Source: Prescottella soli
GTDB lineage: Bacteria; Actinomycetota; Actinomycetes; Mycobacteriales; Mycobacteriaceae
NCBI RefSeq assembly: GCF_040024445.1
Contig: NZ_CP157276.1
Coordinates: 434,001-498,000, forward strand
DNA: 64,000 bases
Reading direction: 5' to 3'
Numbering within the stretch: the stretch's first letter is position 1; every line of letters starts with the position of its first letter. The notes below the pieces were generated by a model. The model made no database searches and had not been told where the DNA came from. It worked only from the letters and a program-made list of their open reading frames with translations. Position numbers and translations under genes: made by a program. Of this stretch, positions 49,653 to 59,374 are shown one piece after another.

Positions 49653-49909
49653 ATCACCGGCACACGACGGCTGGGCGAATCTGATCCGATTGCGACAGAA
49701 CCCCTCTCGTAGAGGCGGTCGGGTCGGCGCGGCACTCGCGACGGGACGTCTCACGCGGACCGACACCACCCCGGCTGGCCGACGCGACAACCCGCCTATT
49801 CGGATATTCCACTGGTTCCGTCCTGCACAGATTTCCACCCGACACGCCGGGGCGCCGATTCCGCTTATCTTCTGTTTCCGTTGCGCACAGAGTGGCTACT
49901 GTTGCCGAT

Positions 49910-50980
49910 GTGACCACACCCGACGTTGCGCCGAATCCGCGGCCCGAACGGAGCATCGACATCTACCGCCGGTCGGTGTCGTGGCTCGAGACCCACCTCC
50001 CCCACGGCTGGACGGCGTCGGCGGATCGGCCCCGCTCCCCCGCGGCGCCCACCCGCCTGCTGATCACGGCACCCGACGGCGAGGCGGTCTCGTATTCGAT
50101 CGTCACGTCGAAGGGTGTGCTCAGCGGCGACGTCGCCCGCATCTCCGCCGAGTTGTCCGACAGCGATCGGGCATTCGTGTGTGCGCACTACCTGTCGGAC
50201 CCGGTCCGCCGCCAACTCGACGGGCACGGGATCTCGTACGCGGACGCCACGGGCAACGTGAACCTCGTCGCCGCCCGGCCCGCGATCTGGGTGCGCAACC
50301 GCGGCGCCGACGCCGACCCGTGGCGGGGTCCCGGCCGGCCGTCCGGTGTACTCACCGGCGAACCGTCCGAACGCGTGGTCCGCGCGCTCGCCGACCACAC
50401 CGGCGAGATGTCGGTCCCGGAACTCATCAAGGTCTCCGGCGCGTCCACGGGTGCCGCGTACCGGGTGGTCGAGGTGCTCTTCGAGCGCGAACTGCTCACC
50501 CGACTGCCACGCGGCCCGATCACCGACGTCCGGTGGCCGCACATGTTGCGCGCGTGGGCTGCCGATCGCAAACCCTGCGCCACACGCAGTTTCGCCGCAC
50601 CCGGCGGTCTCGACGACCTGCGATCCCGCCTGGCCGCGACCAACGGCGATCTCGGCTACGCCGTCACCGGAATCGGCGCCACCGATTACGCCACCCCCAG
50701 TGTGCTCGAGGTGTACGCCGACGACGTCGACGCGTTCGCGGCGGCGCTGGATCTGCGGCCCGTCGACGGCGGGGCCGACGTGGTGGTGGCGACCCCGTGG
50801 TCGGCGGTGGTGTTCGAGCGCATGCAGTACCGCGACGGGCTGCGCTGCGTCTCCCCCGCGCACGCGTACGCGGACCTGGTCGCCGGCCCGTTCCGCCACC
50901 CCGACGCCGCCGAGTACCTGCTGACAGCACTCACCGCGGACGAATCGTCGTGGCGCCGTGCCACTCGGCGCACCCGATGA
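49910..50980 (+). CDS. Winged-helix protein, possibly AbiEi-like, at the head of the Wadjet-like locus
   Basis: A 356-residue soluble protein. Residues ~115-135 carry the motif HGISYADATGNVNLVAARPA, common in actinobacterial proteins of this kind and reminiscent of a nuclease-like or sensor fold. A winged helix follows at ~160-215 (MSVPELIKVSGASTGAAYRV, then VEVLFERELLTRLPRG). The C-terminal ~130 residues (GYAVTGIGATDYATPS, then VSPAHAYADLVAG) recall the nucleotidyltransferase-like end of AbiEi-type antitoxins. These assignments are from memory of family patterns. Same strand and 43 bases before jetA, so it is probably its regulator or a system component. GTG 49892 is an alternative start. 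Confidence 0.6.
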   Translation: MTTPDVAPNPRPERSIDIYRRSVSWLETHLPHGWTASADRPRSPAAPTRLLITAPDGEAVSYSIVTSKGVLSGDVARISAELSDSDRAFVCAHYLSDPVRRQLDGHGISYADATGNVNLVAARPAIWVRNRGADADPWRGPGRPSGVLTGEPSERVVRALADHTGEMSVPELIKVSGASTGAAYRVVEVLFERELLTRLPRGPITDVRWPHMLRAWAADRKPCATRSFAAPGGLDDLRSRLAATNGDLGYAVTGIGATDYATPSVLEVYADDVDAFAAALDLRPVDGGADVVVATPWSAVVFERMQYRDGLRCVSPAHAYADLVAGPFRHPDAAEYLLTALTADESSWRRATRRTR

Positions 50981-51023
50981 CCGACCGGCGTGTTCGCTCA
51001 CGGACCGGGCGACGCCCTAGGCT

Positions 51024-52550
51024 GTGACGGTGAGCGATTCAGGTGACACGAGGACGGCCGGGTCGTCGACGGACGTCGAATTCGCCGCGCGTGAGGACCG
51101 GCTGCGACTGTTCTCCTTCACCACGGCGGAGAAGCGCGCCGAGTACCTGTGGGTGTTGCGCGCGTTCGACAACGCCCGCGCGAACTACGTGGTCCTCTTG
51201 CATGCCGGCGAGGTCGCGGACATCCTCACGCGCATCGCCGGTGACGACCCGCACGGCGCGCTCACCGCGGCCGAGATCACCCCGCTGCTGGAGCAGTTGC
51301 ACACGTGGGGCGTGTTGGAACGCAGCTACGACGGCAGCCGCGCGGCCACTCTCGCCGAGTACCGCAACCGGCACTTCGTCTACCAGTTCAGTCAGGCGGG
51401 CTACCTGGCGTTCCGCGCCGTCGAGGACCTCCTCGGCGCCCGGCTCGAGGACGCGACCCTGTCCCGACTCGCGCTGCCCGATCTACTCGCCGACCTCGAG
51501 GAACTCGCCGAGGCCAACCGGCGCGGCGACGACGACCTGATCTACCGCAAGCTCGCCCGCCTGGATTCGACGCTGACCGACATGGCCGCCCGGGCCGCGC
51601 AGTTCTACCTGATGCTCGGGGACCTGGTGCGCACCACGGAGATCACGCCCGAGGCGTTCCTCGTACACAAGGACGCGCTGCTCAGCCACATGCGGGAGTT
51701 CAGCTCGGACCTCGCCCGCTACGCCCCCAAGCTCTCGGCCGCGATCGCACTCGTGGAGTCCACCGGGATCGACGGGCTGCTCGCCCGTGCGGCGGCGAGC
51801 GACGAACGTCTGTTCATGTCCCACGAGGAGCGCGAATCCGATTGGCGCGCACGCTGGTCGGGCCTGGCCCAGTGGTTCGTCGCGGCCGCCGGCCCGAGCG
51901 AATCCGATCGGCTCCGCGAGGGCACGATGAGCGCGATCGCGGCGGTGCTGTCACTGCTGCGCCGAGTCACCGAAACCCGCCGCGGCGGTGTGAGCCGCGA
52001 GAGCCAGCTAAGACACCTCGCCGGCTGGTTCGCCGCGACGCCCACGGAGGAATCGGCGCACGCGCTGTTCCAGCTGGTGTTCGACCTCGGTCGCCCGCGG
52101 CACCTGTCCATGGTCCATCCGGACGCCGACATCATCCCCGACTCGCGGTCATGGTGGGACGCGACGCCCGTCGAGATCTCCCGCACGCTCGCCGAGACCG
52201 GCCGCGCGGCGTCGCCCGGCATGCCGTCGCGCGTGCAGCGCAACGAGGGCAGCATCCGCCGACTGCGGGAGGAGCAGTTGGCAGCACAACGCGCCCGCGC
52301 GGTCGCGGCGTCGTCGCTCGCGTCGAACGGCGCCTACGACCGCGTGCTCGACGCCGAGGAGACCGACGTCCTGCTGAGCCTGCTCAACGCCGCGCTCACC
52401 GCGCGGGTGCCGGTCAGCGGCACGATTCCCAGTTCGACCGGGTCGGAGAACGGTGTGCGGTTGACGCTGAGCCCGCACGCGGAGTCCACCGTGGTCCAGA
52501 CCGCCCGCGGTCGGCTCCACCTCGACGGTCTGCAGGTGAGCGTGAAGTGA
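51024..52550 (+). CDS. jetA: JetA-like kleisin subunit of a type II Wadjet-like complex (TIGR02677 / DUF2397)
   Basis: A 508-residue protein matching the TIGR02677 family: start RLFSFTTAEKRAEYLWVLRA, then a winged-helix region with YRNRHFVYQFSQAGYLAFRA, a helical middle, WFAAAGP-like and LRHLAGWFAATPTEESAHAL stretches. In Wadjet systems JetA is the kleisin bridging the heads of JetC. Typical length for the family is about 500. GTG 51024 or GTG 51030 could start it; a TAGGCT just upstream suggests a possible internal, leaderless promoter. The TGA overlaps jetB as GTGA (52547-52550). Confidence 0.83.
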   Translation: MTVSDSGDTRTAGSSTDVEFAAREDRLRLFSFTTAEKRAEYLWVLRAFDNARANYVVLLHAGEVADILTRIAGDDPHGALTAAEITPLLEQLHTWGVLERSYDGSRAATLAEYRNRHFVYQFSQAGYLAFRAVEDLLGARLEDATLSRLALPDLLADLEELAEANRRGDDDLIYRKLARLDSTLTDMAARAAQFYLMLGDLVRTTEITPEAFLVHKDALLSHMREFSSDLARYAPKLSAAIALVESTGIDGLLARAAASDERLFMSHEERESDWRARWSGLAQWFVAAAGPSESDRLREGTMSAIAAVLSLLRRVTETRRGGVSRESQLRHLAGWFAATPTEESAHALFQLVFDLGRPRHLSMVHPDADIIPDSRSWWDATPVEISRTLAETGRAASPGMPSRVQRNEGSIRRLREEQLAAQRARAVAASSLASNGAYDRVLDAEETDVLLSLLNAALTARVPVSGTIPSSTGSENGVRLTLSPHAESTVVQTARGRLHLDGLQVSVK

Positions 52551-53968
52551 GGGCCCGCACCGTCTCCCCGCTGGACCTCGATTCGTACCAGCGGGCCGCC
52601 CGCGTCATCCTGTCGAACCATCTTGTGACGCAGACCTATCCGGACCGCCTCGCGCTGCCGCTGCTGCGCCGGTGGGCGACCGAGCTGCGCGACGACCTGC
52701 TCGAGCTGTTCGGGTACCGGCTCGAGGTGACCGAGACGACGGCCCGCCTGTTCACGGTGGCCGACCGTCTCACGCCGGGCACCCCCGCCCGGACCGCCAA
52801 CGACCGCACCTTCGACCGGCACCGCTACGCGTATCTCGCGCTCGCGCTCGCGGCCCTGGGCCGAGCGGGCAACCAGATCACGTTGTCGGAGTTGGCCGAT
52901 CACGTCGCCGCCGAGGCCGCGCAGGTTCCCGGGGTGGCGCTGTCGACGGACCGGGCGGCGGACCGCGACGCGTTCGTCGACGCGGTCGGCTGGCTGGCGG
53001 CGCGCGGCGCGATCGTCCTCGCCGACGGCGATGCCGGCGGATGGGCGTCGAATCCCGATGCGGGCGAGGCGCTCTACGACATCGACCGCTCGGTGGTCGT
53101 CGCGCTCTTCCGCCCACCGCGGGCCCTGCAGCACCTGACGTCGGTGCGCTCGCTGCTCGCCGGCGAGAAGGAACCCCTCGACGACGAGATCGGGTACCGC
53201 CCCACCGATCCGCGCGAGATCGCGCGCCGGATGCGCCGCGCCCTCGTCGAACGTCCCGTCGTGTACGCCGACGAGTTCACCGACGACGAACGGCTCCAGC
53301 TGGCGCTCCCGCGCACGGCGGCGGACGTCGAGGAGCTGACCGGGCTGGTGGCCGAGCGCCGGGCCGAGGGCATCGCGATGATCGACCCGTCGGGCCGGAT
53401 GTCGGACGTCCGCTTCCCCAGCACGGGCACCGTCGCCCAGGTCGCGCTGCTGCTGGCCGGCGAGATGGCCGACCGCGTCCTCGACCTGGATGCGCCCGAA
53501 CTCCCCCGGCGCCCGCTTCCCGTGTCGGATCAGCACGACCTGATGGCCCACCTGGACGCCGCAATTCCCAGCGCCGGGATCTTCGAGCACCTCGCCGACG
53601 ACGCCGGGGACGCCCCCGCCGATCTCTTCACGCCGGTGGACGACCGGCCCGAACCGGCCCGGTACGCGCTGCTCGACGACGCCTGGCTGGCGGCGGCCGT
53701 CGACGAACTGGTCCGCCAGTTCGGCCGCACGTTCGCCGCGCAGTGGCAGGCCGACCACGCAGGGCTGCAACGCAGCGCCGTGGCGCTGCTCGACCGCCTG
53801 CACCTGGTCCGGCTGGTCGACGACGGCGTCCTGGTGTTGCCGGCGATCGCGCGATTCCGCGGCGTCGTGGTCAACATCCGCGACCGCACCGCGCAGTCCG
53901 ACCTGTTCCACGAACAGGTCCTCGGCGAACCTTCGAGCACCGACGAACCCACCTCCGTAGAGAAGTAG
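52547..53968 (+). CDS. jetB: JetB-like KITE subunit of a type II Wadjet-like complex (TIGR02678 / DUF2398)
   Basis: A 473-residue protein matching TIGR02678: YQRAARVILSNHLVTQTYPD near the N terminus, then ELRDDLLELFGYRLEVTETT, FDRHRYAYLALALAALGRAG and the later YRPTDPREIARRMRRALVER. It would be the winged-helix (KITE) subunit binding the kleisin JetA. The GTG is coupled to jetA, and a 13-base gap leads to jetC. No frameshift or internal stop: the gene looks functional. Confidence 0.83.
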   Translation: MRARTVSPLDLDSYQRAARVILSNHLVTQTYPDRLALPLLRRWATELRDDLLELFGYRLEVTETTARLFTVADRLTPGTPARTANDRTFDRHRYAYLALALAALGRAGNQITLSELADHVAAEAAQVPGVALSTDRAADRDAFVDAVGWLAARGAIVLADGDAGGWASNPDAGEALYDIDRSVVVALFRPPRALQHLTSVRSLLAGEKEPLDDEIGYRPTDPREIARRMRRALVERPVVYADEFTDDERLQLALPRTAADVEELTGLVAERRAEGIAMIDPSGRMSDVRFPSTGTVAQVALLLAGEMADRVLDLDAPELPRRPLPVSDQHDLMAHLDAAIPSAGIFEHLADDAGDAPADLFTPVDDRPEPARYALLDDAWLAAAVDELVRQFGRTFAAQWQADHAGLQRSAVALLDRLHLVRLVDDGVLVLPAIARFRGVVVNIRDRTAQSDLFHEQVLGEPSSTDEPTSVEK

Positions 53969-53981
53969 AGGCACCTTTCGT

Positions 53982-56900
53982 ATGGCACACGCGCGTTTCA
54001 AGCCGACCCGCGCCGGGATCGTCAACCTGTGGGACTACCGCGACCAGGAGTTCTCATTCGCCGACGGACGCCTGGTGCTGCGCGGGCCTAACGGCTCGGG
54101 CAAGACCAAGGCCCTCGAGGTGCTGTTCCCGTTCGTGTTCGACGGCCGCATCGAGCCGCGGCGCCTCAACCCGTTCGCGGGCGAGGAGCGGACCATGAAG
54201 TCGAATCTCCTCTACCGCGGGCAGGATTCGGCCCACTCGTACGTGTGGATGGAGTTCTGCCGCGGACCGCAGGACGACCCGGAGGCCGTCACCGTCGGCA
54301 TCGGGATGCGCGCGACCCGCCAGAACGACAAGGTCACCCGCTGGTACTTCGTCGCCGAGGGCCGGGTGGGCGTCGACTTCTCGCTGCTCGGCAGCGACGA
54401 CCGGCCGCTCACCAAGAAGCAGCTGGCCGAGCAGCTCGGCAGCGACGCCCTCACCGACCGTCCGGTCGACTACCGCGCTGCCATCGATGCCAGGCTGTTC
54501 GGCCTCGGGGCCGAACGCTACGACCAGCTGATCAACCTGATCCTGACGCTGCGCCGCCCGCAGCTCGCGAAGAACCTCGACCCGAAGGGGTTGTCGCAGG
54601 CCCTCACCGACGGTCTTCGCCCGCTCGACGAGCAGCTGGTACTCGAGGCGGCCCGCTCGTTCAGCGACATGGAGGAGGTGGGCCGCGCACTCGAAGGTCT
54701 CGCCGCCGCCGACCAGGCCGCGCAGAGCTTCGTCACCGTGTACTCGAAGTACCTGGCCCAGCAGGCCCGCACCGACGTCGAGCAGGTGGCCCGCCGCCTC
54801 GAGTCGGTGGACCGGGCGAAGGCGGTCCTCGACCAGGCACTCGCGCTGCAGACGTCGCGGCAGGAGGAGCGCCTGCTCGCGGAGGAGCGGTTCACCGTCG
54901 CCGAGCGCGCCCTCGAGCAGGCCCGCGCGGACCTCGACACCCTCCAGCGGTCGGGTGCCTACGAGGGCAAGCAGCAACTCGACGACCTCGCCGCCGCCGT
55001 CGAACAGCTCAAGGTGTCGACCGCACAGCAGGCCGACAAGGCACGCAAGGCGCAGGCGACGCTCGAGCAGCGGACCGACGAGGCCACGCGCGCGACCGAT
55101 GCGGTTCGCCGCGCGAGCGCCGCGATGGTGCGCGCCGAGGAGGAACTGGCCGGGGCGGCCGAGCAGGCCGGGATCGCGTGGGCCCCGTTGCCCGAGGGCG
55201 CGCGCGCCGACCAGATCACCACCGCCGTCCGGGGGCACGCCGAGGAACGCGACGGCGACGTCCGGGCCGTGCGCGCGGCCCTGGCCACGGTCGAGAAGGC
55301 GACCACCGAGCGTGAACGCGCCGACCGCGCGGCGGACAAGGGCCGCGAGCTCCTGGACGCTGCCCAGGCCGCGGTCGCCGAGGCCGAGGCGTCCGTGGAA
55401 CTGGCCCGCGCCGACTGCGCGGCCGCGTTGCGCGGATGGTGGACGGAGCATTCCACCGAGTACGGCTCGATCGGCGTCACCGCCGACCTGTTCGCGGCAC
55501 TCGATGCCGCGCTGGCGCGGGCCGGCGAGGACGACTCCCCCAGCCTGGCCACGGTGCTGCACGAGCAAACCCATTCGGCGCTCGACGACCAGCGGGCGCA
55601 CCGCCGTGATGCCGCCGCCGAGCAGACCACCACCACAGAGCGGATCGCCGCGCTGCGTGCCGACCGGCGGCGCGTCGCCGCCGAACACGACGACGCCCCG
55701 GCCGGTTTCGCGTTCCGCACCGGTGACCGCACGGAGCTTCCCGGCGCGCCGCTGTGGCGTCTGGTGCGGTTCGCGGACGGCGTCGACCCGGCCGTCGCCG
55801 CGGGCGTCGAGTCCGCCCTCGCCGCGGCGAACCTCCTCGACGGCTGGGTGTTCGGCGGTGATGGTCCGCTCCCGGACGCCCCGTCGGAGCAGTTCCTCAT
55901 GCCGCTGCCCGAGGATCGTCGACCGGACGGTCCGACCCTCGCCGAGGTCCTCGAGGTGGAGCCCGACGCAGGCGTGCCGGAGACGATCGTGCAGGCCATC
56001 CTGGAATCCGTGGCGCTCGACCGCACCGGCACGGGTGGTGCTGCCGCCGTCGGCGTCGGGGTGGACGGCCGCTTCTGGCAGGGCGTCCAGCGCGGCCGCC
56101 ACGTCAAGGCCGATGCCGAGTACATCGGCACCACCGCCCGCGAGCGCCGGCGCGCCCAACGCCTCGAGGAACTCGACGACGAGATCGCTGCGGCGGAGGA
56201 GGCCCTGAGCGCCGCCCGCGACGCCGAGGCCGAGACTGTCGCCGTCCTCGACCGCCTGGCCGGTGCCGCCAAGGCGCTGCCGCGGCCGTCGGGGGTGCTC
56301 GCCGCGATCAAGAAGCTGACCGAGTCGGCCGGTGCCCTGCGCACAAGGTCGGAGTCCACCGCCACCGTCGGCGAGGAACTCGACCAGGCGATCGCGGACC
56401 ACACCGCCAAGGACAAGCAGCTGCGCGCGGTCGCCGTCACGCACCGCACGTCGCACCAGGCCCGGGACGTCGACGCCCTCGCCGCCGCGATCCGGCACTT
56501 CGAGAATCAGGGCGAGCAGTTGCTGCGCTGCCGCCGCGACCACGAGAAGGAACTCGAGCTCCATCGGGAGGCCGACGACCGCCTCGAGGAGGCGCGCGGG
56601 AACGCCGAGGAGTTCGTCGAGGAAGCCGCCGTCGCCGAGGAGAACTACGCGCAGCAGATCTCGCGCCTCGAAACCCTCCGCGAGGCACTCGGCGCCAGCG
56701 CCGAGCAGATCGACGCCGACCTCGAGCAGGCCCGGGCCCGGATCGAGGTGTGCAAGACCGAGCAGCGCGCCGCCCGCAAGACCTACGACGCCGCGGTCGA
56801 GCAGATCGGCAAGGCCGAGGGCGCGCACGCCGCCGCGATCGAGGCCCTGCGCAGTGCGCTGACCGAAACCCGTTCGGACGCAGACCGACTCGCGCCGTAC

Positions 56901-58154
56901 GCGCGGCGCGACCTGCTCGATCTGCTCGGCGCCCCGACCCAGCACGCGTGGCCGCAGAGCTCCGCGGCGTGGCTGAGCCCGGATCAGCTGGTGTACCGGA
57001 TCGCCACCGAGGGCGATCCCGACGCACCGATCCTGCCGCCCGACGTGGAGGCTCTCTACCGGGCGCTCGACGCGGCGACGGCGTCGGTGAAGACCAGCGA
57101 GAACGCGAAGAAGTCGACCCGCTCGGCGCTCACGGCGGCGCTGCAGGACTTCGACGCCCAGCTCGCCGCGGCCGGCCAGGACTACCGGCTGCAGTGGGAT
57201 GCGCCGGACGGACTCACCGTCGTCCGGGTGCAGGACGACCAGGGCTACTCGTCGATCGGCGAGTTCGCGACCCGGATCAGCGCGGCGCGTCGAGATCAGG
57301 AGGTGCTGCTGACGGATTCGGAGCGGCGCATCCTCGAGGACGCGCTGCTCACCGGACTCGCGCAGCAGATCCACGAGCGCACCGCCGACGCCCGTGACCT
57401 CATCGCCCAGATGGGCGCCGAGATGCGCGAGCGGCGGATGTCGTCGGGCAGCACCATCGGCGTCCACTGGATCCTCGCCGACAACCTCGACGACAGTTCA
57501 CGAGCGGTGTCGAAGCTGCTCGACCGGGCGCCGTCGGCACTGAGTGCGGACGAATTGGCCACCATCCGAGCGCATTTCGCGGCGCAGGTCCGCATCGCCC
57601 GGGCGGCCCATCCCGAGCGGTCGTACCCGGAGATCCTGGCGTCCGCGCTCGACTACCGGCGCTGGCGGGTGTTCTCGTTCACCCTCATCGGCGGCGACGG
57701 CAGCGAGGACCGGCTCACCGTGGCCCGGCACAGCGCGCTGTCCGGTGGTGAGCAGTCGGTGTCGCTGCACCTGCCGCTGTTCGCCGCGGCGCACGTCATG
57801 TTGTCGTCGGCGGATCCGCACTCCCCGCGCCTGCTCGGTCTCGACGAGGCGTTCGCCGGCGTCGACGACAACGGCCGCAGCGAACTCCTCGGTCTGAGCG
57901 TGCAGTTCGATCTCGATCTGTTCATGACCGGATACGACCTGTGGATCACGTACGCGGGCGTGCCGGGATGCGCGCACTACGACCTCGCGCACTCGACGGC
58001 GGAGCAGAGCGTGAGCGCGGCGCTGCTCGTGTGGTCCGGCGGCGAACTGCTCGCGGAGCACGACGGCAGCAACCTGGCCCGCGCCCTCGGCTCGCCGATG
58101 CGCCGCCGGGTGCCCGCCACCGCGGAGGGCGGACTCGAGTTCGCCGAGGTCTAG
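53982..58154 (+). CDS. jetC: JetC-like SMC/MukB-type ATPase of a type II Wadjet-like complex (TIGR02680)
   Basis: A 1390-residue SMC-like motor. Walker A GPNGSGKT is at residues 35-42 and the ABC signature LSGGEQSVSLHLPL starts at ~1253, with Walker B LLGLDEAF (D1288, E1289). Between them lie two long coiled-coil arms (~250-560 and ~720-990) and a hinge-like globular region (~575-715, GAPLWRLVRFADGVDPAVAA). All catalytic residues are kept. In Wadjet, JetC with JetA and JetB extrudes DNA loops and a JetD nuclease then cuts circular plasmids. Here no jetD follows: after the stop there is a hairpin and then an unrelated gene. Confidence 0.88.
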   Translation: MAHARFKPTRAGIVNLWDYRDQEFSFADGRLVLRGPNGSGKTKALEVLFPFVFDGRIEPRRLNPFAGEERTMKSNLLYRGQDSAHSYVWMEFCRGPQDDPEAVTVGIGMRATRQNDKVTRWYFVAEGRVGVDFSLLGSDDRPLTKKQLAEQLGSDALTDRPVDYRAAIDARLFGLGAERYDQLINLILTLRRPQLAKNLDPKGLSQALTDGLRPLDEQLVLEAARSFSDMEEVGRALEGLAAADQAAQSFVTVYSKYLAQQARTDVEQVARRLESVDRAKAVLDQALALQTSRQEERLLAEERFTVAERALEQARADLDTLQRSGAYEGKQQLDDLAAAVEQLKVSTAQQADKARKAQATLEQRTDEATRATDAVRRASAAMVRAEEELAGAAEQAGIAWAPLPEGARADQITTAVRGHAEERDGDVRAVRAALATVEKATTERERADRAADKGRELLDAAQAAVAEAEASVELARADCAAALRGWWTEHSTEYGSIGVTADLFAALDAALARAGEDDSPSLATVLHEQTHSALDDQRAHRRDAAAEQTTTTERIAALRADRRRVAAEHDDAPAGFAFRTGDRTELPGAPLWRLVRFADGVDPAVAAGVESALAAANLLDGWVFGGDGPLPDAPSEQFLMPLPEDRRPDGPTLAEVLEVEPDAGVPETIVQAILESVALDRTGTGGAAAVGVGVDGRFWQGVQRGRHVKADAEYIGTTARERRRAQRLEELDDEIAAAEEALSAARDAEAETVAVLDRLAGAAKALPRPSGVLAAIKKLTESAGALRTRSESTATVGEELDQAIADHTAKDKQLRAVAVTHRTSHQARDVDALAAAIRHFENQGEQLLRCRRDHEKELELHREADDRLEEARGNAEEFVEEAAVAEENYAQQISRLETLREALGASAEQIDADLEQARARIEVCKTEQRAARKTYDAAVEQIGKAEGAHAAAIEALRSALTETRSDADRLAPYARRDLLDLLGAPTQHAWPQSSAAWLSPDQLVYRIATEGDPDAPILPPDVEALYRALDAATASVKTSENAKKSTRSALTAALQDFDAQLAAAGQDYRLQWDAPDGLTVVRVQDDQGYSSIGEFATRISAARRDQEVLLTDSERRILEDALLTGLAQQIHERTADARDLIAQMGAEMRERRMSSGSTIGVHWILADNLDDSSRAVSKLLDRAPSALSADELATIRAHFAAQVRIARAAHPERSYPEILASALDYRRWRVFSFTLIGGDGSEDRLTVARHSALSGGEQSVSLHLPLFAAAHVMLSSADPHSPRLLGLDEAFAGVDDNGRSELLGLSVQFDLDLFMTGYDLWITYAGVPGCAHYDLAHSTAEQSVSAALLVWSGGELLAEHDGSNLARALGSPMRRRVPATAEGGLEFAEV

Positions 58155-58204
58155 CCCGGGCCCCTCCGACGAAGAGCCACTCCGAGAACCGACCCGTCCG
58201 AACC

Positions 58205-58243
58205 GGCGCGCTGCACCCACCGACCGCGTGTGTGCAGCGCGCC
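58205..58243. terminator. Terminator-like hairpin behind jetC
   Basis: Perfect 12-base arms GGCGCGCTGCAC (58205-58216) and its complement (58232-58243) around a 15-base loop, 50 bases after the jetC stop. It marks the end of the jet transcript; there is no reading frame between jetC and this hairpin. Without T tract, so it may depend on Rho. Confidence 0.6.
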
Positions 58244-58301
58244 GACCTCTGTGCGGACCATCACTCGGCCCGAACGGGCGTCTCACACATTCCGTACATC
58301 G

Positions 58302-58345
58302 TGTGACCCAGATCACAATGTAACTCAATTGTGATCTGGGTCGCC
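58302..58345. promoter_or_regulatory. Paired CRP/GlxR-like sites within a 38-base inverted repeat
   Basis: TGTGA-N6-TCACA at 58302-58317 fits the CRP/GlxR consensus exactly. A second, weaker site (TGTGA-N6-TCGCC) is at 58330-58345. They belong to a larger inverted repeat with 15-base perfect arms at 58305-58319 and 58328-58342 and an 8-base loop. Upstream of the GH19 promoter, at distances compatible with activation by a cAMP-receptor-type protein. Confidence 0.65.
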
Positions 58346-58380: not shown

Positions 58381-58498
58381 GGTTGTGACCTTGTCGTGAC
58401 CACCGGGTGATGCAGCGGTCAGAACAACTTACTCGACCCTACCGGTGCTCACGTTCGGCGGCTGCCCCGTCTGCAGCCCAAAAGCTGGAGCACGAACC

Positions 58499-59374
58499 TT
58501 GAACGATTCGCGTAAGAGCAATTTCGACCAGACGTCGACCACTACCCGATGCGGGCTCATGTCACGAACCCGCATCGCCGGCGTAGCCACCCTGGCCGCG
58601 GCCGGCCTGATCGGAAACGCCGTTTTCGGACCGCTCGCGTCCGGTAACGCCGAGCCCCTGCCGGCAGCCCCGGCAGCGCTGACAGCCCCCGCCGCCGCAG
58701 CGGCACCGGCGCAGTTCCTCGAGTCCACGGGCCTGCTGAAGGCGCTCAACCTGCCGGACTCGACCCCCGTGCCCGCCCCGGCCCCTAATCCGCAAGCCAG
58801 CATCATCCCGGCCATCGCACCCCCACCCCCGCCCCCGCCGCCCGCACCGGCGTCCGTCACGCTCGACGAACTCGTGAGCATCGTGCCGCAGGTGTCACCC
58901 GCGCAGCTCGCCGGCTACGTCGCGCCGCTGAACGACGCACTGGCGAAGGCCGCCATCGACACCCCGGTGCGCAAGGCCGCGTTCATCTCGCAGCTCGTCG
59001 TCGAGTCGGATTCGTTCCGCACGTTCGAGGAGTACGCGTCCGGCCGCGCCTACGAGGGGCGCTCGGACCTCGGTAACGTCGCGCCCGGCGACGGCGAGCG
59101 CTACAAGGGCCGCGGAGCCATCCAGGTCACCGGCCGCCACAACTACGAGAGCGTCAGCAACTACCTCGGCATCGACTTCGTCGCGCATCCCGAGCTCATG
59201 TCGACGCCGGAGAACGCCTTCGACACCGCCGCCTGGTACTGGCAGTCCCGCAACCTCAACGCCGTGTCGGATACCGGCAGCATCGAGAGCGTCTCGCGCA
59301 TCGTCAACGGCGGCACGAACGGCCTGTCGCAGCGCATCGACAGCTTCCAGCGCGCGCTCGGGGTCCTCCACTAG
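58499..59374 (+). CDS. Secreted glycoside hydrolase family 19-like protein
   Basis: A 291-residue exported protein. A signal peptide (RIAGVATLAAAGLIGNAVFG) is followed by an Ala/Pro-rich linker with an eight-proline run. The last ~170 residues are a GH19/lysozyme-like domain: KAAFISQLVVESDSFRTFEE with the catalytic Glu, then GERYKGRGAIQVTGRHNYES and FDTAAWYWQSRNLN. It probably cleaves chitin-like or peptidoglycan glycans. TTG 58499 is preferred as start because GGAG lies eight bases upstream; ATG 58559 would give a shorter, more usual signal peptide. Controlled by CRP/GlxR-like sites. Confidence 0.8.
   Translation: MNDSRKSNFDQTSTTTRCGLMSRTRIAGVATLAAAGLIGNAVFGPLASGNAEPLPAAPAALTAPAAAAAPAQFLESTGLLKALNLPDSTPVPAPAPNPQASIIPAIAPPPPPPPPAPASVTLDELVSIVPQVSPAQLAGYVAPLNDALAKAAIDTPVRKAAFISQLVVESDSFRTFEEYASGRAYEGRSDLGNVAPGDGERYKGRGAIQVTGRHNYESVSNYLGIDFVAHPELMSTPENAFDTAAWYWQSRNLNAVSDTGSIESVSRIVNGGTNGLSQRIDSFQRALGVLH

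Follow-up and report, generated by a model that had tools for sequence, protein, structure and literature searches.

A type II Wadjet-like JetABC operon without the nuclease JetD in Prescottella soli and many relatives

The 64,000-nucleotide (nt) stretch of the Prescottella soli genome analyzed here (contig NZ_CP157276.1, positions 434,001 to 498,000; hereafter the window) carries jetA, jetB and jetC of a type II Wadjet system, and profile searches found the nuclease gene jetD neither at this locus nor elsewhere in the genome. The reading to which we lean is that JetABC is a structural maintenance of chromosomes (SMC) motor that works independently of a nuclease, resembles MksBEF and is derived from a type II Wadjet, jetD having been lost here and in several sister lineages. 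That JetABC was kept intact while the cutter was lost in the genus and in many relatives suggests a job that needs no cutting. The features of the locus were as follows.

51024..52550, + strand: jetA, type II kleisin (TIGR02677/DUF2397); TIGR02677 232 bits (cut-off 166), PADLOC PDLC00536 613 bits, PF09660 487 bits
52547..53968, + strand: jetB, type II KITE (TIGR02678/DUF2398); TIGR02678 140 bits (cut-off 125), PADLOC PDLC00545 698 bits
53982..58154, + strand: jetC, type II SMC ATPase, 1390 amino acids; TIGR02680 724 bits (cut-off 463), PADLOC PDLC00553 1436 bits
58155..58444, no strand: site of jetD in JetD-bearing relatives, intergenic here; no jetD remnant detected

The three genes were intact open reading frames (ORFs), as had been claimed in an earlier note on this DNA, which assigned them to TIGR02677, TIGR02678 and TIGR02680, and they scored above the curated NCBIfam cut-offs. 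The coupling of jetA and jetB that it described was also real, as the start of jetB overlapped the stop of jetA in GTGA at 52547-52550 (seen in the translation), and jetC followed jetB after 13 nt. Moreover, the ATPase motifs that it regarded as kept in JetC were all found, namely Walker A (GPNGSGKT), the signature (LSGGE) and Walker B (LLGLDEAF). The interval had been drawn from 49910, but the locus begins at 51024 with jetA, since 49892-50980 is a separate gene. JetA2, JetB2 and JetC2 thus stood in one operon, as in a type II Wadjet, and the PADLOC JetC1 model matched the window's JetC weakly (35.7 bits). In a search of solved structures, JetC and JetA matched the JetC and JetA chains of entries 9qe0/9qe1, and no matching solved chain was found for JetB or for a JetD profile.

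The earlier note had described the locus as lacking JetD and had proposed a genome-wide search for TIGR02679/DUF2399. The search was run on the window's genome (5.48 Mb, single contig), and TIGR02679, PF09983, PF09664 and A1, a profile built from 20 JetD proteins, all failed to detect a JetD homologue in the locus or the genome. In the case of TIGR02679, no match was obtained with six of ten candidates scored; elsewhere in the family, this model recovered JetD from 39 genomes. PF09983 also gave no match, and it matched in one of 14 control genomes. The empty PF09664 search shows little by itself because none of the 14 control genomes matched. With A1, nothing was found at E≤1, all 101 candidates being scored. 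The genus sample comprised this genome and 13 others, the genus being read as Prescottella. JetC was found in all 14 (13 over the cut-off), and each of the 14 regions also had JetA and JetB; TIGR02679 found JetD in none of them, and A1 gave nothing at E≤1 in any, with every first-look candidate scored. The nuclease of a type II Wadjet (TIGR02679/DUF2399) was therefore not detected in the locus, the genome or any of the 14 genus genomes. In a second run, A1 matched none of 50 JetD-less genomes at E≤0.01, the window's included (32 candidates scored per genome; 32 of 89 in the window's genome), and matched all five JetD-bearing genomes at E 1e-144 or better, those five having supplied rows to the profile. 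With the genome searches empty for all four profiles, supply of a nuclease in trans, one of three options in the earlier note, is not supported as far as the JetD family is concerned.

Homologous loci were compared in 101 regions, 100 from the sampled genomes and that of the window, and the clade of the window's JetC comprised 78 of them. JetA and JetB were present in all 101 regions and JetD in 22. Within the clade, 11 of the 78 loci carried JetD: 7/13 in Rhodococcoides (g6), 2/17 and 1/10 in the Rhodococcus groups g23 and g27 (the latter being the R. ruber group), and 1/4 in Antrihabitans (g15). JetD was found in no clade locus of Prescottella (g1, 14 loci), the sister group g21, also Rhodococcus (6), Nocardia (g22, 12), Speluncibacter (g25, one) or g28 (one). 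The nine JetD-bearing Nocardia loci in the region set carry a JetD that belongs to a second type II lineage. A JetA alignment scan matched 262 stretches, the best 80 of which were taken as named loci; of these best 80, 21 had JetD, 50 lacked it and nine were unscorable at contig ends. The 21 came from three Rhodococcoides, R. yunnanensis, R. tibetensis, one genome labelled R. ruber and 15 other Rhodococcus, while the 50 included P. agglutinans, P. defluvii, P. equi, R. erythropolis, R. jostii, R. opacus and Nocardia species. The earlier note had proposed examining the same locus in relatives for jetD after jetC and for disrupted jetABC. The former exists, in Rhodococcoides and R. tibetensis, but JetD-less JetABC was disrupted only in one assembly, G003.

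The clade loci largely share their neighborhood. The left flank consisted of a cluster on the side of a gene that we take to be metH, with PAC2 and MFS genes, and the right flank of a tRNA-synt_1e-domain gene, presumably mshC, followed by DUF3090, histidine phosphatase and BacA genes. Of the 78 clade loci, 65 retained at least one of these conserved flanks within the region and 31 retained both, and mshC was downstream in 49. By group, a flank was kept in 13/14 Prescottella loci (the other being cut by the contig start), 13/13 in g6, 17/17 in g23, 12/12 in g22 (left only), 3/4 in g15, 5/6 in g21, 1/1 in g28, 1/10 in g27 and 0/1 in g25, so the R. ruber group mostly lies in a different neighborhood. 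JetD was located between jetC and mshC in nine of the 11 JetD-bearing clade loci, namely those of g6 and g23. The remaining two, G053 and G150, had neither conserved flank within 7.8 kb downstream; an idea that JetD always occupies the mshC site and that G053 was merely cut by a contig end proved wrong on this recount. In 12 JetD-less loci, the end of jetC was 14-71 nt from mshC, stop codons included, and most Prescottella genomes had several genes between jetC and mshC, with a GH19 gene first.

Two observations concern other type II lineages. In the second lineage as it occurs in g27, JetD was missing in all nine sampled loci, while three sister loci from Nocardia have it. In a third lineage, g13, three loci contained JetA, JetB and JetC, and JetD was detected neither beside them nor elsewhere in the three genomes.

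The JetABC genes showed the marks of retention. JetA, JetB and JetC were three single long ORFs in 66 of the 67 JetD-less loci and in all 11 JetD-bearing loci, and Walker A, signature and Walker B were present in 78/78 clade JetC proteins, including that of the window (in G003, in pieces). Among the Prescottella loci, JetABC was intact in 13 of 14. In the other, G003 (locus L125), JetA, JetB, JetC, GH19 and mshC were split into several frames; because GH19 and mshC were split too and the genome was 79% complete, sequencing or assembly error is likelier than decay. Being frameshifted, G003 was excluded from the Prescottella selection group and from the residue test described below. The comparison of nonsynonymous to synonymous substitution rates (dN/dS, omega) that the earlier note had proposed for jetABC was run pairwise, pairs with dS outside 0.02-2 being dropped, and Prescottella contributed 13 loci and 78 pairs (55 for mshC). 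At a mean dS of 0.6-0.7, Prescottella omega was 0.103 for JetA, 0.213 for JetB and 0.125 for JetC, with 0.099 for mshC and 0.074 for PAC2, which indicates purifying selection. The corresponding values in JetD-bearing g6 were 0.067, 0.127, 0.082, 0.062 and 0.030. Expressed as JetA/JetB/JetC ratios to mshC, the constraint in Prescottella (1.0/2.2/1.3) was like that in JetD-bearing Rhodococcoides (1.1/2.0/1.3); the ratios were similar in JetD-less g23a (0.8/1.9/1.2) and close in JetD-less g23b (0.9/1.7/2.0).

These results do not fit a recent loss of JetD, another option of the earlier note, in the case of this genus: all 14 genomes and the six g21 loci lack JetD, and JetABC, intact in all but one of the 14 loci, is under purifying selection. 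Of the three options, a nuclease-independent SMC system appears to be the best supported, on grounds of elimination and selection, and a specific role can be proposed conditionally. An ancestral JetABCD type II Wadjet would have lost jetD in this lineage and in several sisters. The retained JetABC would still load on DNA and use ATP to extrude loops, its activity within JetABCD, with no cleavage. As JetABC has been described as the extruding motor and JetD as being activated once extrusion is complete (PMC12647877), the retained complex most likely extrudes without cutting. It could then act as a nuclease-free condensin-like complex that organizes or segregates DNA in the manner of MksBEF; alternatively, it might silence or destabilize small circular DNA without cutting it. 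The target may be the chromosome or incoming circular DNA, both being compatible with the sequence. The gene content, the lack of a detectable JetD homologue, the conserved flanks, the repeated absence of JetD and the purifying selection are observations, while we infer the direction of change, the motor activity (by homology) and the cellular role. A wider claim is offered tentatively, and we would not expect it to hold in full: in Prescottella, Rhodococcus and Nocardia, JetABC could be a domesticated, largely vertically inherited, nuclease-free condensin-like complex, its independent and repeated nuclease losses replaying the path speculated for MukBEF and MksBEF.

Several points weigh against a nuclease-independent motor derived by loss of jetD. 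In Bacillus subtilis, plasmid transformation was suppressed only with all four subunits (PMC10586767), and by the established route JetABC would therefore not be expected to restrict plasmids on its own. The window's genome already has one canonical SMC over the cut-off, and a condensin role would therefore be additional. Constraint was weaker in JetD-less g6b (1.6/2.5/2.1) and g21 (1.9/2.2/2.1), given as ratios to mshC. With PAC2 as the yardstick, the ratios were 1.4/2.9/1.7 in Prescottella and 2.2/4.2/2.7 in JetD-bearing g6, and the omega values of the latter may be distorted since its dS exceeded 1 (saturation). Finally, the residue test found 0, 2 and 4 JetD-linked columns in JetA, JetB and JetC against null means of 0.5, 0.4 and 1.9, none beyond the null in a test of low power; this result is in line with the nuclease-independent reading, but unchanged residues could also mean that an alternative partner uses the JetD surface.

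The last point leads to the rival that survives best, although we consider it unlikely, namely that plasmid restriction continues with a nuclease unrelated to JetD, encoded elsewhere and docking on that surface. JetD-less lineages showed no sign of an eroded JetD docking surface, and the constraint in Prescottella resembles that of JetD-bearing relatives; both observations favor this rival, but the former depends on the residue test, which has little power. No candidate nuclease was identified, no general nuclease screen of the genome having been made. Moreover, no replacement gene common to the JetD-less genera was seen after jetC among ORFs that had homologues in two or more further genomes. 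The conserved ORFs directly after jetC in JetD-less loci (a SARP-like regulator, a secreted hydrolase, dehydrogenases and others, named by eye) differed between genera and were rejected as effectors, and apparent 4-nt gaps after jetC were artefacts of stop-to-stop ORFs. The upstream neighbor of jetA, gene U, was also considered as a substitute effector.

49892..50980, + strand: gene U, upstream neighbor, neither a Jet subunit nor JetD; HTH_IclR 19.4 bits (cut-off 22), no PADLOC or NCBIfam match

Gene U has a well conserved SYADATGN stretch and a weak IclR-type winged helix-turn-helix, and it matched no known family. Its distance to jetA was 44-89 nt (hidden Markov model envelopes) in most named loci of the genus Prescottella, and in the R. 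erythropolis group it was 52 nt. In R. ruber and R. aetherivorans, gene U was located roughly 4.7 kb upstream, in G140 it was 245 kb away from jetC, and it also occurs in G139, a genome absent from the list of those with JetC. Being unlinked to jetABC across genera and without a nuclease or defense match, it was rejected as the effector, which also counts against the rival of an unrelated nuclease.

Somewhat less probable still is the rival in which the clade started from a JetD-less JetABC and acquired JetD on several occasions, either by itself or as part of whole JetABCD operons. It is favored by parsimony without polarity, which prefers a JetD-less ancestor, as the six Fitch changes compare with 17 losses from a JetD-bearing ancestor (Dollo), a number that a transfer of G053 and G150 might lower. 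These two loci may indeed have moved, since they lack conserved flanks and G053 clusters with Nocardia rather than its own genus. In the JetABC tree (FastTree only), the 78-locus JetC clade was monophyletic and the loci grouped largely, not strictly, by genus, with g23 in two places and g15 and g6 not forming single branches. JetD-bearing and JetD-less loci were sister leaves in G149/G237 and in G268/G048, the latter pair corresponding to R. kyotonense JCM 23211 and KB10. Repeated gain is opposed by the clade JetD forming one branch (support 0.986) whose distances track those of JetABC (r 0.96, 55 non-independent pairs), and by the position of JetD between jetC and mshC in most JetD-bearing loci.

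The polarity was taken from outside the family. In a phylum sample of 246 genomes, with JetC counted at matches better than 1e-60, 18 genomes had JetC, 16 of them outside the family, and 15 of these 16 had JetD; the sixteenth, G489, had a JetC fragment at a contig edge. JetD matches without a strong JetC were one partial match (G488, 47 bits) and four weaker ones (<25 bits). In a family sample of 301 genomes (JetC better than 1e-60, JetD better than 1e-10, counted by hand from tables), 129 had JetC and 39 had JetD, all among the 129, which left 90 without JetD; a fortieth JetD match, in G299, was weak. Because JetD accompanies JetC in 15 of 16 genomes outside the family and in 39 of 129 inside it, jetD is probably ancestral and was probably lost repeatedly within the family.

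Remnants of jetD were sought by tblastn, in which 11 JetD proteins were searched against as much as 4 kb of the sequence following jetC, and JetD-less loci gave only weak matches or matches overlapping jetC. The best of these (E 7e-10 and weaker), from the R. ruber group, were rejected as artefacts because their alignments were confined to an N-terminal extension overlapping jetC. In G237, a 12-nt stretch after the jetC stop resembled the jetD start of its sister G149 (10/12 identical, counted by eye); this is suggestive only, and such a trace in a JetD-less locus would speak against repeated gain.

A vestige without present function, decaying slowly after loss of the nuclease, is very improbable: the higher relative omega in g6b and g21 and the frameshifted G003 could be read in this way, but Prescottella omega was 0.10-0.21 with 13 of 14 loci intact, and G003 is likely an assembly error. 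A complete Wadjet with a JetD too divergent to be recognized is hardly credible, even though the evolutionary rate of JetD in the clade is about 1.9 times that of JetABC, as TIGR02679, built without these sequences, found JetD in 39 family and 15 outside-family JetC genomes and not here, and as the A1 searches of the genus (E≤1) and of the 50 JetD-less genomes (E≤0.01, 32 candidates scored per genome) were empty.

Downstream of jetC, two further features were recorded.

58204..58244, + strand: near-perfect inverted repeat with 17-nt arms and 94% complementarity, possible terminator after jetC
58445-59374: GH19-domain gene after jetC, the first downstream gene

The GH19 gene was where the earlier note had placed it. 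The hairpin that it described with perfect arms was present as well, but its arms are 94% complementary over their full length rather than perfect, and a consensus terminator scan did not call it terminator-like. A search for perfect arms of at least 8 nt with loops of 3-10 nt, restricted to 200 nt from the jetC stop, was empty for 10 of the 14 genus loci, and its loop limit would also miss hairpins of the 58204-58244 type. Perfect hairpins of at least 8 nt within 200 nt of the jetC stop occurred in 21 of the 67 JetD-less and none of the 11 JetD-bearing loci, this stretch being jetD coding sequence in the latter. In L110 and L080, the JetD-less loci closest to JetD-bearing sisters, strong perfect hairpins with 19- and 13-nt arms were located directly 3' of the jetC stop. 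Furthermore, a perfect 15-nt inverted repeat was observed at 58305-58342, upstream of the GH19 gene and beside TGTGACCCAGATCACA, which resembles a Crp/GlxR site. Three of the 14 genus loci had a TGTGA-N6-TCACA match in the 1.2 kb that follow jetC.

In the current view of Wadjet, the work of the motor ends in a cut, and a large bacterial group that keeps the motor and repeatedly drops the cutter implies a use for the motor itself. The proposed link between defense SMC complexes and condensins can be tested directly in sister strains that differ in whether jetD is present at this site. Plasmid restriction may also be lacking in genomes that are scored Wadjet-positive on three genes. PADLOC calls a Wadjet only if all four genes are there and labels partial sets 'other' (PMC9252829). 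A survey of Actinobacteria found Wadjet unusually common there, its main text being without the word JetD (PMC10482375). Our search of the open-access literature, with subscription papers and preprints outside its scope, found no analysis of JetD-less type II Wadjet.

Compared with type II Wadjet (JetABCD), such as nvJET of N. vireti, which cleaves circular DNA (PMC12647877), the window has the same type II JetA, JetB and JetC homologues in one operon, but the cleaving nuclease JetD was not found in the locus or the genome. The JetABCD loci of Rhodococcoides and R. tibetensis belong to the same JetABC clade and, in nine of the 11 JetD-bearing loci, share the mshC flank; however, they carry jetD directly after jetC. 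Published three-protein Wadjet calls in R. erythropolis NI86/21 (PMC12915292, Table 4) and Paenarthrobacter lasiusi (PMC11719660, Table 6) likewise list JetABC without JetD, whose absence passes without comment beside those entries. In the case of the MksBEF and MukBEF condensins, the same set of kleisin, KITE and SMC occurs without a nuclease. MksBEF organizes the Pseudomonas aeruginosa chromosome and helps its segregation (PMC7485682), in Corynebacterium glutamicum MksF connects the nuclease MksG to the complex (PMC10123090), and it has been speculated in print that MukBEF and probably MksBEF arose from Wadjet (PMC10586767). Unlike these condensins, the proteins described here belong to the type II Wadjet families, with JetC in TIGR02680, and a comparable role on the chromosome would be theirs by analogy.

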